Source of the DNA: Salinimicrobium tongyeongense
GTDB taxonomy: Bacteria; Bacteroidota; Bacteroidia; Flavobacteriales; Flavobacteriaceae
Length of the DNA stretch: 64,000 bases
Direction of reading: 5' to 3'
Assembly (NCBI RefSeq): GCF_026109735.1
Contig: NZ_CP069620.1
Coordinates: 2,418,001-2,482,000 of the forward strand
In this document: piece by piece, positions 19,490 through 25,812 of the stretch
Position numbering within the stretch: the first letter of the stretch is position 1
Layout: the number at the start of each line of letters is the position of its first letter
Program-made: the position numbers and the translations under genes
Notes under the pieces: generated by a model
Seen by the model: the letters and a program-made list of their open reading frames with translations, nothing else
What the model was told of the DNA's origin: nothing
Databases searched by the model: none

Positions 19490-21310
19490 TTAGAAAGGAT
19501 ACTTGTTTTCTGAAATTACTTTTTCTGCAATAGTCTTGCGCAACTCTACCACGTTTGGCTGGTTTTCATACTTTGTAAACCTCTTAAGCCCCATCAACAT
19601 CATTCTTTGTTCATCACCTTCGGCAAAAGAAACGATTCCTTCCTTGGCTTTTTGAGTAATAATGTCAACAGCGTGGTAAAGGTACAATTTTGCCATTGCA
19701 ATTTGCTCTTTTTGAGTATCGGCACCAAAACGCTTCACGTTTTTCTCTGTTCGTAAAATGGTAGATTCTGCCATATATATCTCTATAAGGATATCTGCAG
19801 AAGCTAAAAGCAATTGCTGGTGGTCTTCAAGCTGTGGCCCAAATTTTTGAACTGCACTACCGGCAACCATCAGGAATACTTTTTTCAGCTTTTTGACCAT
19901 TTCTTTTTCTTCAGCAAAAAGTTCAGAAAAATCGGGTTTGTCAAAAGATGGGATCCCTGTAAGTTCTTCCCCCACTTTGGTAGCAGGGCCCAGCAGGTCT
20001 ACATGGCCTTTCATGGCTTTTTTAACAAGCATCCCTACGCAAAGCATACGGTTGATCTCGTTAGTTCCTTCGTAGATCCTGGTGATACGGGCATCCCTCC
20101 ATGCAGATTCCATAGGTGCATCGGCAGAGAAGCCCATTCCTCCAAAGATCTGTATACCTTCATCTGTACAATTCTGAAGATCTTCGGAAGCTGCAACCTT
20201 CAAAATAGAACATTCAATGGCATATTCTTCCACGCCTTTTAATTCGGCTTCCTGGTGGGAATTACCTTCGGCCTGACGTATAGAAATCCTGTCTTCAATA
20301 TCTTTTGCAGCACGATATGAAGCCGACTCTCCTGCGTAGGCTGAAGTTGCCATCTCTGCAAGTTTAGACTGTATGGCACCAAACTGGGAGATAGGAGTTT
20401 TGAACTGCACCCTGTCGTTAGCATATTTTACAGCTGCGTCTATAGACCTTCTCTGGGCGTCAAGACAGGCTCCTGCAAGTTTAATACGGCCCACGTTAAG
20501 GGCGTTCATGGCAATTTTGAACCCGTTTCCTCTTTCTGAAAGCATGTTTTCTACCGGCACCTTGGTCTCATTGAAGAATACCTGGCGGGTAGAGGAGGAG
20601 TGGATCCCGAGTTTCTTTTCCTCTTCCCCAAGAGAGATGCCGTTAGGGTTCTCACGGTCGTATTCTACAATGAATCCGGTGATGTTCTTGTCGTCTTCGA
20701 TACGGGCAAAAACGATCATCATGTCACAGAACCCTGCGTTGGAGATCCACATTTTCTGACCTGTGATGCTGTAGTATTTTCCGTCTTCAGAAAGAACGGC
20801 TTTTGTTTTTCCCGAATTGGCATCACTACCAGCTCCCGGTTCTGTCAAAGCATAGGCGCCAAACCATTCTCCTGTAGCGAGCTTCGGAAGGTATTTTTTC
20901 TTTTGTTCTTCGTTTCCGTAGAGGGTAATGGGCAGTGTCCCAATTCCTGAGTGGGCCCCAAAAGCAGTGGAAAAAGATCCCGTAGCTCCCGAAATATAAT
21001 CAACTACCAGCATGGTAGTGACAAATCCCATACCCAGACCGTCGTATTCTTCAGGCACCGAAACTCCCAAAAAGCCCATTTCGCCGGCCTTTTCCATCAG
21101 CTCTTTTGTGAGCTCGTAATTTTTCTTTTCAAATTCTTCCCTTTTGGGCATTACTTCACGATTCACGAATTCCTGTACGCTCTCGCGCATCATTTTCTGC
21201 TCATCAGAAAAATCTTCGGGCGTGAAAACACTTTCTGCACTGGTTTCCTTTACCAGGAACTGCCCCCCTCGAAGAAGGTCTTTTTTGTTGCTATCTGTTT
21301 GTGTGCTCAT
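19490..21310 (-). CDS. fadE: Acyl-CoA dehydrogenase (FadE-like, long form)
   Basis: This 606-residue flavoenzyme oxidises acyl-CoA to trans-2-enoyl-CoA. The ACAD core (about 30-430) carries GAYALTEPGAGSDANSGKT near 152, MWISNAGFCDMMIVFARIED near 187 and RITRIYEGTNEINRMLC near 410, with the catalytic Glu expected in YEGTNE. The extra C-terminal region (about 450-606) is the extension found in VLCAD/ACAD9-type enzymes. Order fadN-fadA-fadE is the same as in Bacillus subtilis. It is last of the minus-strand operon, followed by a hairpin terminator; the four-helix-bundle ORF lies in the 463-bp gap before it. Confidence 0.94.
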   Translation of the reverse strand: MSTQTDSNKKDLLRGGQFLVKETSAESVFTPEDFSDEQKMMRESVQEFVNREVMPKREEFEKKNYELTKELMEKAGEMGFLGVSVPEEYDGLGMGFVTTMLVVDYISGATGSFSTAFGAHSGIGTLPITLYGNEEQKKKYLPKLATGEWFGAYALTEPGAGSDANSGKTKAVLSEDGKYYSITGQKMWISNAGFCDMMIVFARIEDDKNITGFIVEYDRENPNGISLGEEEKKLGIHSSSTRQVFFNETKVPVENMLSERGNGFKIAMNALNVGRIKLAGACLDAQRRSIDAAVKYANDRVQFKTPISQFGAIQSKLAEMATSAYAGESASYRAAKDIEDRISIRQAEGNSHQEAELKGVEEYAIECSILKVAASEDLQNCTDEGIQIFGGMGFSADAPMESAWRDARITRIYEGTNEINRMLCVGMLVKKAMKGHVDLLGPATKVGEELTGIPSFDKPDFSELFAEEKEMVKKLKKVFLMVAGSAVQKFGPQLEDHQQLLLASADILIEIYMAESTILRTEKNVKRFGADTQKEQIAMAKLYLYHAVDIITQKAKEGIVSFAEGDEQRMMLMGLKRFTKYENQPNVVELRKTIAEKVISENKYPF

Positions 21311-21349
21311 TTTACTATAATATTATTATTAAAAATTTATGTATTGAGT

Positions 21350-21766
21350 CAAGAACCAAGAATCAAGAGTCAGGACTTTTTATCCAGACCATCAATAAAA
21401 CCGGAGATCATTTTTTGAAGTTCCTGTACTTTTGTTTCCAGTTGTCGAAATTGATGCTCATTAATATACTTCTCGTTATAAGCAACTATTAACTGCGTTT
21501 CCCATTCAAAAGCAGAACCCAAACTACTGTCCAAAAATTGAGAAAAATGTTTATCTGTTTTTTTACTTGTTCCTTCTGCAATGTTAGAAGGAATTGAAAC
21601 TGCACATCTTATAAGTTGAGTAACAAGGTTATATTTTTCTATGTCGGGAAATGTTTTCACCATTTTATATGTAATCTGGACCAGGTTCATTCCCTCTTGC
21701 CAAATCTTCATCCTTTTAAAATTGTGCCTGCTCATATTTCTCTTGCCTCTTGCCTCTTGCCTCTTG
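21350..21766. repeat. Inverted repeat bracketing four-helix-bundle ORF 1
   Basis: The left arm, CAAGAACCAAGAATCAAGAG at 21350-21369, ends where the ORF's stop codon (21370) begins. The right arm, CTCTTGCCTCTTGCCTCTTG at 21740-21759, lies four bases upstream of the ORF start and is extended by one more CCTCTTG to 21766. 16 of 20 positions are complementary, so the ORF would sit in the loop of a long hairpin in the operon mRNA. The arms are built of a 7-base motif (TCTTGCC on one side). Confidence 0.8.
21370..21735 (-). CDS. Four-helix-bundle (23S rRNA IVS-type) protein 1
   Basis: This 121-residue protein belongs to the four-helix-bundle family known from intervening sequences of bacterial 23S rRNA: it begins with NFKRMKIWQEGMNLVQITYK, has the hallmark VSIPSNIAEGTSKKT near residue 49 and SSLGSAFEWETQLIVA near 71. 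Its role is unknown. Here it lies not in rRNA but between fadA (38-bp gap) and fadE (59-bp gap), in the same direction. Its ORF is flanked directly by a 20-bp inverted repeat. The paralogue at 23012-23365 is similar (VSIPSNIAEG, LGSAFEFETQLI) and sits in the next gap of the same operon. Confidence 0.9.
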   Translation of the reverse strand: MSRHNFKRMKIWQEGMNLVQITYKMVKTFPDIEKYNLVTQLIRCAVSIPSNIAEGTSKKTDKHFSQFLDSSLGSAFEWETQLIVAYNEKYINEHQFRQLETKVQELQKMISGFIDGLDKKS

Positions 21767-21773
21767 TTTCTTT

Positions 21774-22967
21774 TTAAGAAAGAAACTCAAAGACTCCCGC
21801 GGCTCCCTGTCCTGTACCTACGCACATGGTTACCATTCCGTATTTGTTTTTAAGGTCACGTTTGCGCATTTCATCAAACAGCTGTACCGAAAGCTTGGCC
21901 CCAGTACAACCCAGCGGGTGGCCCATAGAAATAGCTCCCCCATTAGGGTTCATGCGGTCCATATCCAGTCCGAGTTCACGAATTACTGCTAAAGACTGAG
22001 ATGCAAAGGCTTCATTAAGCTCGATCAACTCCAGGTCATTCAGCTGAATTCCTGCCTGTTTTGCGGCTTTTGGAATAGCGTGTACTGGTCCTATCCCCAT
22101 AATTCTGGGTTCAACACCTACTGCGGCGTAGCTCACCAGTCGGGCGACAGGTTCAAGGTTAAGTTCCTTCACCATTTCTTCACTCATTACCATGACAAAA
22201 GCGGCACCATCACTCATTTGGGAAGAATTACCGGCTGTAACGCTTCCGCCTTCGGAAAAGACCGGGCGCAGCTTGCCTAAAACTTCCCGGGAAGTATCGG
22301 CTCGTGGTCCTTCATCTTTGTTTACGGTATAAGATCGGGTTTGTTTTTTGCCGTTTTCATCAACATAAGTTTGATCTACTGTAATAGGCACGATCTGGTC
22401 CTGAAAGCGGTCTTCTTTTTGGGCTTTTAGAGACTTTTGATGAGAGTTGAATGCAAATTCATCCTGGTCTTCCCTTGAAACCTTGTATTTTTGAGCAACT
22501 GCTTCCGCAGTTAATCCCATTCCCCAGTAGTAATCTTCTTTTCCGGCTTTTGCCAGTTTGTAATCTGGTACAGGTTTATACCCTCCCATAGGGATATAGC
22601 TCATGCTTTCGGCTCCCCCGGCAATGATGCAGTTGGCCATCCCACTTTGGATTTTGGCAGTGGCTATGGCAATGGTTTCAAGGCCTGAGGCGCAATAGCG
22701 GTTTACGGTCATTCCCGGCACGTCTTCAGTGTTCAACCCCATAAGAGAGATAAACCTACCAACGTTAAGTCCCTGTTCGGCTTCGGGCATGGCATTTCCC
22801 ACTATCACGTCATCGATGCGTTTTTTATCAAATTCTGGCAGCTTATCCATCATAAACTGGATAGTTTCTGCCGCTAACTCATCTGGCCTTTTAAATCGGA
22901 ATACCCCCCGTGGTGCTTTTCCCACTGCAGTTCGGTATCCTTTTACGATGTAAGCTGTTCTATTCAT
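21774..22967 (-). CDS. fadA: Acetyl-CoA C-acyltransferase (3-ketoacyl-CoA thiolase)
   Basis: This 397-residue thiolase cleaves 3-ketoacyl-CoA with CoA in the last step of the beta-oxidation cycle. The nucleophilic Cys is in [13 protein letters not shown] near residue 92; the His is in [15 protein letters not shown] near 350; the second Cys is in [14 protein letters not shown] near 382. It lies downstream of fadN and is flanked on both sides by a four-helix-bundle ORF (44 bp upstream, 38 bp downstream). Length and motifs suit the degradative type. Confidence 0.96.
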
Positions 22968-22983
22968 TGTATATTGTATTTTG

Positions 22984-23403
22984 TATAATGTATAATGCCT
23001 TTTTGTAGTAGTTACAATGTAGATTGCAGTTTAATAATCATGTTCTGAATATGATGAACTTCTTTTTCGAAGTATTCAAAATCCTGCTCCTGGATGAAAT
23101 TAAGATTTCTGCAAATAATCAATTGAGTTTCAAATTCAAATGCAGATCCTAAGGCCAGTCCGAGAAAATTGGCAAAGTCCTTATTGGTTTTGCGCCCACA
23201 ACCTTCAGCAATGTTAGAAGGAATGGAGACTGCAGATCTTCTTATTTGTGAAGTAAGACCATATAATTCCTCTTTTGGAAAAGCAGCACTTTTTAGGTAG
23301 GTTTCCGTAACAAGGTAAATTGCTTTGTGCCAAACCTTTAACTCCTTAAAGTAATTCATAATCACAACAGTTTTACAGTATACAATCTACATTATACACT
23401 ATA
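22984..23403. repeat. Inverted repeats bracketing four-helix-bundle ORF 2
   Basis: Outer arms: TATAATGTATAATG at 22984-22997 and CATTATACACTATA at 23390-23403, complementary at 13 of 14 positions. Inner arms: AATGTAGATTG at 23016-23026 (at the ORF's 3' end) and CAATCTACATT at 23383-23393, complementary at 11 of 11. They share bases 23390-23393, so both could not pair fully at once. The same arrangement as at 21350-21766. Confidence 0.75.
23012..23365 (-). CDS. Four-helix-bundle (23S rRNA IVS-type) protein 2
   Basis: This 117-residue member of the IVS four-helix-bundle family begins NYFKELKVWHKAIYLVTETY and has VSIPSNIAEGCGRKTNKDFANFL and LALGSAFEFETQLIICRN. It resembles the ORF at 21370-21735 at roughly half of positions in the core. 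It lies in the gap between fadN (41 bp) and fadA (44 bp), in the same direction. Two nested pairs of inverted repeats flank it. Function unknown; family members may bind nucleic acid or stabilise spliced rRNA fragments, but this is not established. Confidence 0.9.
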   Translation of the reverse strand: MIMNYFKELKVWHKAIYLVTETYLKSAAFPKEELYGLTSQIRRSAVSIPSNIAEGCGRKTNKDFANFLGLALGSAFEFETQLIICRNLNFIQEQDFEYFEKEVHHIQNMIIKLQSTL

Positions 23404-23406
23404 CGA

Positions 23407-25812
23407 TTAGTTTCTCAATGGTTTCCCCTTCTGCAACATGTGCTGCAACCTTTCCAGGGTTTTTCTTTCTCCTGTTAAGGAAAGGAATGCTTCTCTTTCC
23501 AAATCGAGCAGGTATTGTTCGCTCACGTAAGAGTTTTCAGATAAATCGCCCCCGGCCATCACATAGGCGAGTTTGTTGGCGATCTTTTTGTCATGTTCGC
23601 TTATGTATTTACCGGCGAACATTTGATCTGTCCCTACATAAAAAGCACCAAGAGCTTGTTTTCCCAGTACTTTAATATCAGTTCTCTTCACAGGTTTGGT
23701 GTAGCCGTTTTCAGCCATGAGCAGCGCGTGTTTTTTAGCAATTGCCAGCTGGCGATCGGGATTTACCACTACGATATCTTTTCCTTTCTGAAGAATATTC
23801 AGGTCGTAGGCCTCGTAAGCTGAAGTGGAAACTTTTGCCATTCCTATGGTAAGGAAATGTTCGCGAAGTCGGTTCAACTCCACATCATCTTTCTGGAAGG
23901 TATCGGCAGCACGCAGGGTCATTTCCTTGGAGCCTCCACCGCCGGGAATTACCCCAACTCCAAATTCTACAAGTCCTATGTAAGTCTCGGCTGCAGCGAC
24001 AACTTTATCTGCGTGTAATGAAAGTTCACATCCACCACCCAAAGTCATAGCGTGTGGTGCTGCAACTGTTGGAATAGAGGAGTAGCGCATTCTCATCATG
24101 GTGTCCTGGAAATATTTTATAGCCATATTGAGCTCATCATATTCCTGCTCAACAGCCATCATAAAGATCATTCCTATGTTGGCGCCTACCGAGAAGTTTT
24201 TTCCGGTGTTGGCAACTACCAGTCCCTGGTATTCTTTTTCAGCAAGATCAATGGCTTTATTGAGTCCGTCAAGAACATCTCCGCCAATAGAATTCATCTT
24301 ACTTCGGAATTCCACATTCAAAATACCGTCACCCAGGTCTTCTACCACAACCCCGCTGTTGCTAAAGACTTTTTTAGACTCCCTGATGTTATCCAGAATG
24401 ATAAATGCATCCTGCCCCGGAATCTTTTTGTATTCCTTAGCCGGAATATCGTAATACCAGGTATTGCCGTCTTTAACGGTATAGAAGCCTTTATTTTCTT
24501 TTTCAAGCATTTCGTTCACCCAGGCTGCAGGCTCTTTACCTTCAGCTTTCATGATCTCGATACCTTTTTCAACACCAATGGCGTCCCAAATCTCAAACGG
24601 CCCATGTTCCCAGCCATATCCGGCTTTCATGGCGTCATCTATTTTGTAGAGTTCATCGGTAATTTCAGGAATTCTCTTGGAGGCATAGGCGAAAATAGCA
24701 GCGAAATTCTTTCGGTAGAAGTCCCCGGCCTTATCTTTACCGTCAACAAGTACTTTAAACCTTTCCGATACCTTATCAATCGTTTTCGTTAATTCAAGAG
24801 TAGCAAAATTTGCCTTTTTTTGCGCCCGGTACTCAAGAGTATTAAGGTCAAGTGACTGGATTTCACTTGAACCATCGTCTTTTTTAATTTTTTTGTAGAA
24901 ACCCTGTCCGCTTTTGCTTCCAAACCATTCATTCTCGACCATGGTGTTAATATAATCGGGCATGGCAAAGAGGTCGTGTTCTTCATCTGTAGGCACTCCT
25001 TTGTGAAGGCCTTCAGCAACATGCTTTAGGGTGTCAAGCCCCACAAGATCTACAGTTCTAAAAGTGGCAGATTTTTGCCTTCCTATAACTGGACCTGTAA
25101 GTTTGTCAACTTCTTCAATAGTAAGGTCTAGCTCTTTCACCATATGGAAAAGGCTCATGATACTGTAAGTGCCAATCCTGTTACCAATAAAGGCCGGAGT
25201 GTCTTTTGCGACTACAGAAGTTTTACCAAGGAATTTCTCACCGTATTCATTAAGGAATTCCAGTACTTCTTCGGAAGTGTCTGGCCCCGGAATAATTTCA
25301 AACAGTCTCAAATATCGCGGCGGATTAAAGAAGTGGGTTCCGCAGAAGTGTTTCTGAAAATCTTCACTTCGGCCCTCATTCATTTGTTGAATAGGTATCC
25401 CTGAAGTATTGGAGGTGATCAATGTTCCCGGTTTGCGGTGTTTTTCAAGATTGTCAAAAACCTGCTTTTTAATATCCAGGCGCTCCACAACAACCTCCAT
25501 GATCCAGTCAACTTCAGATACTTTTGAGATATCATCTTCCAGGTTTCCGGTTTTAATACGATTGGCAAAGTCTTTATGATAAATAGGAGAGGGCTTGGAT
25601 TTTAAAGCATCCTGCAGCGCCGTGTTTACAATACGGTTCCTCACCTGTTTGTCTTCCAGGCTAAGACCCTGTTTTTTTTCTTTTTCGGTCAGTTCCCGGG
25701 GAACAATATCCAGTAGTAGCACCTCTACGCCAATGTTGGCGAAATGGCAGGCAATACCACTTCCCATTATCCCCGAACCTATAACTGCAACTTTGTTGAT
25801 TCGTCTTTTCAT
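23407..25812 (-). CDS. fadN: 3-hydroxyacyl-CoA dehydrogenase / enoyl-CoA hydratase (FadN-like)
   Basis: This 801-residue protein catalyses hydration and NAD-dependent oxidation of the beta-oxidation cycle. Order is dehydrogenase first, hydratase last, as in FadN. The NAD-binding site is VIGSGIMGSGIACHFANIG (residues 11-29), TSNTSGIPI follows, CGTHFFNPPRYLRLFEIIPG at about 158 holds the catalytic His-region, and the C-terminal helical domain follows. The hydratase/crotonase fold (about 490-700) shows VVANTGKNFSVGANIGMI and MTLGGGCELSLHADKVVAA. It is cytosolic and heads the fadN-fadA-fadE set, 36 bp after marR. Confidence 0.94.
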   Translation of the reverse strand: MKRRINKVAVIGSGIMGSGIACHFANIGVEVLLLDIVPRELTEKEKKQGLSLEDKQVRNRIVNTALQDALKSKPSPIYHKDFANRIKTGNLEDDISKVSEVDWIMEVVVERLDIKKQVFDNLEKHRKPGTLITSNTSGIPIQQMNEGRSEDFQKHFCGTHFFNPPRYLRLFEIIPGPDTSEEVLEFLNEYGEKFLGKTSVVAKDTPAFIGNRIGTYSIMSLFHMVKELDLTIEEVDKLTGPVIGRQKSATFRTVDLVGLDTLKHVAEGLHKGVPTDEEHDLFAMPDYINTMVENEWFGSKSGQGFYKKIKKDDGSSEIQSLDLNTLEYRAQKKANFATLELTKTIDKVSERFKVLVDGKDKAGDFYRKNFAAIFAYASKRIPEITDELYKIDDAMKAGYGWEHGPFEIWDAIGVEKGIEIMKAEGKEPAAWVNEMLEKENKGFYTVKDGNTWYYDIPAKEYKKIPGQDAFIILDNIRESKKVFSNSGVVVEDLGDGILNVEFRSKMNSIGGDVLDGLNKAIDLAEKEYQGLVVANTGKNFSVGANIGMIFMMAVEQEYDELNMAIKYFQDTMMRMRYSSIPTVAAPHAMTLGGGCELSLHADKVVAAAETYIGLVEFGVGVIPGGGGSKEMTLRAADTFQKDDVELNRLREHFLTIGMAKVSTSAYEAYDLNILQKGKDIVVVNPDRQLAIAKKHALLMAENGYTKPVKRTDIKVLGKQALGAFYVGTDQMFAGKYISEHDKKIANKLAYVMAGGDLSENSYVSEQYLLDLEREAFLSLTGERKTLERLQHMLQKGKPLRN

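Follow-up and report, generated by a model that had tools for sequence, protein, structure and literature searches.

The fad operon of Salinimicrobium tongyeongense raises the question of what four-helix-bundle open reading frames (ORFs) of the IVP family, and the repeats that surround them, are doing between protein-coding genes. Such ORFs are best known from the intervening sequences (IVSs) of 23S rRNA, the ends of which pair and are cut by RNase III. In the window, that is, the whole 64,000-nucleotide stretch of DNA analysed here, two small ORFs occupy both gaps of an operon whose genes, all on the (-) strand, we take by recognition, with no database call, to be fadN (23407-25812), fadA (21774-22967) and fadE (19490-21310). 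A sequence-only reading had placed two related IVS-type ORFs in these gaps, in operon direction, and this holds: both are on the (-) strand, both match PF05635 and they are 46% identical to one another. IVP gene 1 (21370..21735, 121 aa) scores 122.5 bits (E 1.1e-35, cut-off 33.8) and IVP gene 2 (23012..23359, 115 aa from its ATG, or 117 aa if started at the GTG at 23365) 133.6 bits (E 3.7e-39); the TIGR02436 profile gives 116.2 and 126 bits for the two ORFs against a cut-off of 24. The answer developed below, to which we give an even chance of being right, is that the two gaps hold IVS-like elements carried in the operon mRNA.

Element 1 takes up the entire fadA-fadE gap (21311..21773, (-) strand; 463 nt from the fadA stop codon to the fadE start codon) and consists of the IVP gene and two heptamer arrays. 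In operon sense, its 5' arm (21740..21773, (-)) is made of (G)CAAGAG heptamers starting 3-4 nt past the fadA stop codon, with a lag-7 score of 20/21, and its 3' arm (21345..21376, (-)) of CAAGANN heptamers on the + strand that overlap the stop codon of the ORF; the two are complementary at 16 of 20 positions (21350-21369 with 21740-21759), and all four mismatches fall on variable letters, two in each of two heptamer units. Element 2 is the entire fadN-fadA gap (22968..23406, (-); 439 nt). Its 5' arm (23371..23406, (-); lag-7 score 16/21) comprises GTATANT heptamers immediately past the fadN stop codon, and its 3' arm (22968..22997, (-)), complementary to the 5' arm, GTATANT heptamers on the + strand running up to the fadA start codon; 22984-22997 matches 23390-23403 at 13 of 14 positions, and a longer pair, 22968-22995 with 23371-23398, matches at 82% over 28 nt. 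At its end, IVP gene 2 carries a third, inner copy of the arm sequence (23013..23026, (-)), complementary to 23383-23396 at 13/14, with an 11/11 core within. The arm pairs that had been located from the letters alone (16/20, the outer 13/14 and the inner 11/11) are confirmed in their coordinates, and chance does not equal the arms: with the same geometry and 60-nt flanks, 0/300 random window places reach 16/20 and 0/300 reach 23/28. They are inverted repeats, as had been claimed, and also something that the claim overlooked, namely convergent tandem arrays of a degenerate heptamer, CAAGANN in element 1 and GTATANT in element 2. RNA folding, proposed at the same time as a check, agrees: in the predicted structure of each element the arms form a stem around a loop that contains the ORF (z -2.09 and -3.64; 0/100 shuffles as good). 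Complementary pairing ends with an ORF in the loop are, in these predictions, shared with 23S rRNA IVSs; unlike the latter, which lie in 23S rRNA, both window elements lie between protein-coding frames.

Among the closest described systems is the 23S IVS of Coxiella burnetii, for which the accessible part of the report (PMC4990558) gives tandem GACAGAT heptamers before the S23p ORF, a 28-bp terminal stem and RNase III processing, and says that the ORF is decaying. As far as that part goes, the likeness extends to the protein family, an insert of ~430 nt, stem-forming inverted ends and tandem heptamers upstream of the ORF, whereas the window elements differ in sitting between the protein genes of an operon and in having an IVP under purifying selection.

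The model of IVP 1 is a four-helix bundle (pLDDT 94.5) whose nearest solved structure is Xcc0516 (2gsc, TM 0.85), followed, below the E-value limit of 0.001, by Avd of diversity-generating retroelements (4dwl, 8ub7; TM ~0.8); as modelled, IVP would thus have the same fold as Avd. This opens the possibility that IVP, like Avd, has a reverse transcriptase as its partner, which would copy the heptamers from a short template. The match of the IVP 1 model to the Avd chains of the retroelement ribonucleoprotein (8ub7, TM 0.80), the weak Avd profile matches of IVP 1 and the telomere-like, G-rich polarity of the arms speak for this account, which we nevertheless regard as very improbable. Against the Avd and bAvd profiles only IVP 1 matches, and both scores fall below the cut-offs (24.9 of 40 bits and 27.6 of 80 bits); the sites of one genome share no template; and, unlike Avd, IVP does not require a reverse transcriptase in its genomes. 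No RVT_1 match is found in the IVP-rich genomes G001, G005, G006 and G008 (16, 11, 10 and 9 IVPs), and the S. tongyeongense genome has a single weak RVT_1 match, ~490 kb off. As several IVP-rich genomes are without an RVT_1 match, reverse transcriptase was rejected as a necessary partner.

IVP genes are widespread among relatives: 11 matches are present in the 3.51-Mb S. tongyeongense genome, and 11/12 genomes in the genus and 60/80 in the family, this genome being counted in both, contain IVP. The 11 ORFs of this genome are at most 47% identical to one another; there are thus no recent copies within it, and no recent burst of copying. Among 50,697 phage records, no IVP match is found at E 1e-4. 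The ORFs are open in 98 of 106 cases, with a median dN/dS of 0.20 over 93 same-site pairs (dS 0.05-1.8) and values of 0.02-0.09 in many close pairs; judged by these substitution ratios, IVP ORFs are under purifying selection.

The organisation seen in the window was compared with the flanks of 107 loci, comprising 79 of the 119 genus matches and 28 family loci. Autocorrelation of the 90-nt flanks of the first 39 loci is highest at multiples of 7 (lags 7, 14 and 21), with 0.38-0.41 at the first of these vs 0.26 in the control. In the best 28-nt segment of the flanks of the 107 loci, lag-7 identity is 0.711 vs 0.509 in the control and other lags stay close to the control, apart from lag 8, where a small rise accompanies the lag-7 signal. 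The heptamer sequence varies from element to element, with cross-arm scores at background, and two adjacent variable columns fail as a general heptamer rule (18/43 vs one third by chance). What is constant is the agreement of the two arms: the left arm scores on average 14.6 against its own inverted right arm vs 8.9 against those of other elements, and 70/107 elements exceed the 95th percentile of cross pairs (12.5). Element 2 (L001), at 15.5, is one of these 70; element 1 (L002), at 12.5, only equals the percentile and is excluded. Foreign right arms score as well in 3/106 cases for element 2 and 5/106 for element 1. With one element per site, 31/43 lie above the 95th percentile (mean 13.4 vs 8.2); locus L072, which contains a run of N, is left out of this count as well as of the duplex-energy, within-gap, lineage, dN/dS and site-level analyses.

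The elements are also oriented. The ORF is sense with both neighbours in 95/107 loci and antisense to both in 1; at site level the figures are 35/43 and 2, and in the survey described below 50/72 and 6 (8 of its 80 loci being left out for want of flank), neighbour orientation being taken in all three counts from the longest open frames, not from annotation. The stop codon of the upstream gene marks the beginning of the left array (median -1.5 nt; within 10 nt in 26/54 cases). In the mechanism that we favour, each gap would hold a single copy of an IVS-type element that is widespread, an IVP gene between convergent, element-specific arrays of degenerate heptamers, fitted mostly in sense into the space that separates one operon gene's stop codon from the start codon of the gene after it; such placement at an operon junction means that the element should be co-transcribed with the operon. 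With the arms paired in the transcript, the IVP frame would be kept in a loop and the neighbours could tolerate the insert; the stem may be cut, by analogy with 23S rRNA IVSs; IVP, which is structurally related to Avd, a subunit of the diversity-generating-retroelement ribonucleoprotein, may bind the stem or its single strands; and the arms would stay matched because pairing is required. The sense bias could, on the other hand, mean only that the IVP gene is without a promoter of its own.

In the folds of 122 arm sets, left-right arm pairs reach 31.9 vs 20.4 for mismatched arms. A 7-nt ladder of internal loops is clear in the mini-element L118 (z -5.22) and no more than a weak shoulder over the 122 sets. 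Two comparisons ask whether it is RNA that pairs. Arm mismatches have no excess of G.U (166 vs 212 A.C, with 15/107 elements dropped for score or N), and there is no advantage for the sense strand: the antisense duplex is slightly better (-42.75 vs -40.28 kcal/mol) and the sense duplex lower in 42/106 elements. Neither comparison gives a sign that selection acts specifically on the stem of the sense RNA. Of the earlier proposal of IVS-like elements in mRNA-coding operons, the anatomy stands; both comparisons speak against explaining the arms by RNA alone.

The same observations suit a process acting on DNA, in which arms grow by slippage, template switching or conversion keeps them alike as the inverted repeat is extruded into a hairpin at replication, IVP binds the G-rich single strand and RNA pairing is incidental. 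The lack of G.U bias and the equal pairing of antisense and sense are as expected of it; so are the strong strand polarity of the arms, which read inward contain 31.7% G and 11.4% C (112 arrays), and the fact that matching is local, sites of one genome being unlike. Copying should, however, mirror the order of units between the arms, and mirrored order is not found (65 elements, mean z 0.17); moreover, the sense bias and the selection on IVP are left unexplained. We consider this account possible and on the whole unlikely. The missing G.U excess, the antisense pairing, the unmirrored order and the G-rich polarity together imply that matching is kept at the level of the heptamer. The sense bias points to, and so favours, RNA; the sequence by itself decides neither for RNA nor for DNA.

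How matching is kept over time can be followed at single junctions. The 22 fadN-fadA elements comprise several heptamers and ORF lineages, and own arms score 14.16 vs 9.47 for cross arms (0/5000 permutations); within the main ORF lineage of that site (18 elements) the values are 11.64 and 8.89 (p 0.0006). The sequence-only reading had named arms that are not conserved in relatives as evidence against it: the letters do differ between lineages, but the left-right match within each element is kept. Permutation within sites is significant at only 2 of the 7 largest (p < 0.02); at the others (p 0.08-0.49) one heptamer is common to several species. The arms of 4 CTAGANN elements are interchangeable within their heptamer family (p 0.33). 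At different sites, related ORFs (at least 50% identical) share arms in 15/135 pairs, derived from 8 site pairs, vs 14/4509 for unrelated ORFs (below 40%), so that arms partly travel with the gene. Arms are unlike between sites of one genome (290 vs 2550 pairs, p 0.57), which speaks for local matching and against a genome-wide template; there is no genome-wide heptamer pool. In the ruvX-def gap of L263, the left arm has AAGGGAT-type heptamers and the right arm GTATAAT-type units, apparently a one-sided arm replacement halfway through.

Relatives also provide the empty sites for which a search had been suggested: their fad operons include gaps with neither ORF nor arms. Of 30 family fadA loci, 11 have a fadN-fadA gap of 4-24 nt and 11 a fadA-fadE gap of 0-26 nt, and IVP-bearing gaps of ~410-510 nt number 7 and 6, respectively. 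Reduced forms occur as well: ORF-less heptamer arrays (at least 14/21) fill gaps of 71-124 nt in L114, L118, L120, L121, L124, L126 and L129, and at the fadA-fadE gap, where S. tongyeongense has an ORF, the genus loci L014, L016, L021 and L022 have matched arms without an ORF, and L019 and L020 unmatched arms. Folds of four ORF-less gap sequences are clearly stable in two cases (z -5.22 and -3.54) and not in the other two (z -1.32 and -1.17). The same range is found between genes that we take by recognition to be hisH and hisA, where, of 12 genomes, 6 have a full element, L258 a mini-hairpin and L252 and L257 mainly lone arrays, the gap is 17 nt in L260 and the genes overlap in L261; between the presumed ruvX and def genes, an ORF is present in 8/11 genomes. 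Empty gaps across the examined junctions measure -4 to 26 nt, and all come from diverged genomes. Other inverted-repeat families, of GTCGAGCGCAGTCGAGAC type and CCTCCCC/GGGGAGG type, are present in the fadA-fadE gap of L115, L129 and L130 and in both gaps of L128; these junctions thus seem open to several kinds of hairpin-forming insert. The 713-nt fadN-fadA gap of L111 contains TTGCGACTCAA / TTTGCGCCTCAA-like repeats, which are of a different kind, with no obvious heptamer element.

Beyond the family, one conserved peptide found 592 loci in named genomes, the best 80 of which form the survey. Own arms exceed the 95th percentile of cross pairs in 56/80 and the 99th in 45/80, and lag-7 identity is 0.690 vs 0.484 in the control; 96/160 flanks reach 14/21, vs 11/149 control stretches. 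Heptamers are present in both arms (at least 14/21) of 35 of the 56 matched elements, from 12 named phyla, a count without L248, which would be the 36th and owes its score to a run of N. As 12/56 have heptamers in neither arm, some matched arms are not heptameric. The 77 loci with an assigned phylum fall into 19 phyla, and the one archaeal locus is without matched arms. The ORF tree requires 34 phylum changes (45.9 when shuffled, 18 at minimum), which suggests, on this tree, that IVP ORFs were frequently transferred between phyla. Among 12 cyanobacterial plasmid copies, taken from 21 plasmid records, 10 have own-arm scores of at least 14.5, the exceptions being L140 (12.5) and L142 (8.0); 8/12 are sense and 3/12 antisense to both neighbours. 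Their arm units include GGGAGTA, AGGGTGT, GGGAACA and TGACAGG, with 8-nt units in L148. Three cyanobacterial elements lie in CRISPR operons (cas6-IVP-cas4 in L139 and L146, on two different plasmids, and cmr2-IVP-cmr3 in L148, on a third), and in L138 (nrdB-IVP-nrdA) the IVP is antisense. For an IVS-like element carried in mRNA we count the period of 7, own-arm matching, sense bias, empty and reduced sites, purifying selection and the folds; against it we count the lack of G.U excess, antisense pairing, unmirrored order, the 2/7 sites, CTAGANN interchangeability, the 3/12 antisense cyanobacterial copies and the 12/56 matched elements without heptamers.

The heptamers themselves have relatives in the literature. 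In cyanobacteria, heptanucleotide repeats are known as STRRs. As given in the accessible parts of the reports, TAACTGA repeats occur in Beggiatoaceae, cyanobacteria and Bacteroidetes, with no evident mechanism of spread, and nearly all sets are listed by MacGregor as direct repeats (PMC4679880); the heptamers described elsewhere are GGGAATC in Xanthomonas, where convergent pairs number 70 and 75 in two genomes, and GGGGA(T/C)T in Nostoc (PMC4692102). Like STRRs and these three repeats, the arms of the present elements are tandem, degenerate, intergenic 7-nt units, and similar units frame cyanobacterial IVP genes; the accessible parts of both reports mention no IVP gene. In the open-access literature searched, including the accessible parts of PMC8700078, PMC5524665 and PMC10053308, IVP genes and heptamer arrays are nowhere connected; as subscription literature lies mostly outside this search, novelty is unproven. 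With MITEs and REPIN-like mini elements the elements share inverted ends, intergenic position and ORF-less forms; unlike insertion sequences, MITEs and REPIN-like elements, they have no family-wide terminal repeat sequence and no transposase.

A further possibility is that the arrays are an independent intergenic repeat and that IVP genes settled in pre-existing facing pairs. In a 464-kb sample of the S. tongyeongense genome, 14 strong arrays occur at lag 7, as compared with 0, 0, 1, 4, 0 and 2 at lags 5, 6, 8, 9, 10 and 11. Of the 13 listed, 6 are not near an IVP and 7 lie beside IVPs, 3-4 of the few that the sample contains. The sample is biased in that it takes in the window and some places picked for an IVP; strong arrays away from IVP genes are mostly lone. 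The 6 distant arrays, the existence of lone and of ORF-less convergent arrays and, in the accessible part of PMC4692102, the 70-75 convergent GGGAATC pairs of Xanthomonas support such independence, yet we judge it improbable: the other 7 arrays flank IVPs, though in a biased sample, and arms partly travel with the gene (15/135 vs 14/4509 pairs).

A broader form of the IVS-like reading is that IVP genes across bacteria belong to one element class with ends set by a rule rather than a sequence, namely two convergent and mutually matched arrays of an arbitrary heptamer. To this class 23S rRNA IVSs, cyanobacterial STRRs, TAACTGA repeats and Xanthomonas GGGAATC pairs would belong as full, reduced or orphan forms, and IVP would recognise or maintain a 7-nt-step structure in its own arms; we put this forward tentatively, with somewhat more doubt than confidence. 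The framing of IVP by heptamers may connect two features of bacterial genomes that lack an explanation, the role of scattered 'four helix bundle / S23' genes and the origin of heptanucleotide repeats, so far described separately in cyanobacteria, Beggiatoaceae and Xanthomonas. It further suggests that an element with a possible influence on operon mRNA resides in many operon gaps, and it makes IVP with its two matched arrays a defined object on which RNA processing, the binding of nucleic acids and repeat growth can be tested.

Two further arrangements of arrays were noticed. At L154:10873-11011, two strong, unlike arrays with ATATTGA and CACTGAG units stand 37 nt apart with no ORF, as an unmatched pair. 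At two unlinked places of the S. tongyeongense genome (L156:6408-7876 and L167:15142-15400), seemingly the same IS3-type insertion sequence abuts heptamer arrays, as if it preferred them.
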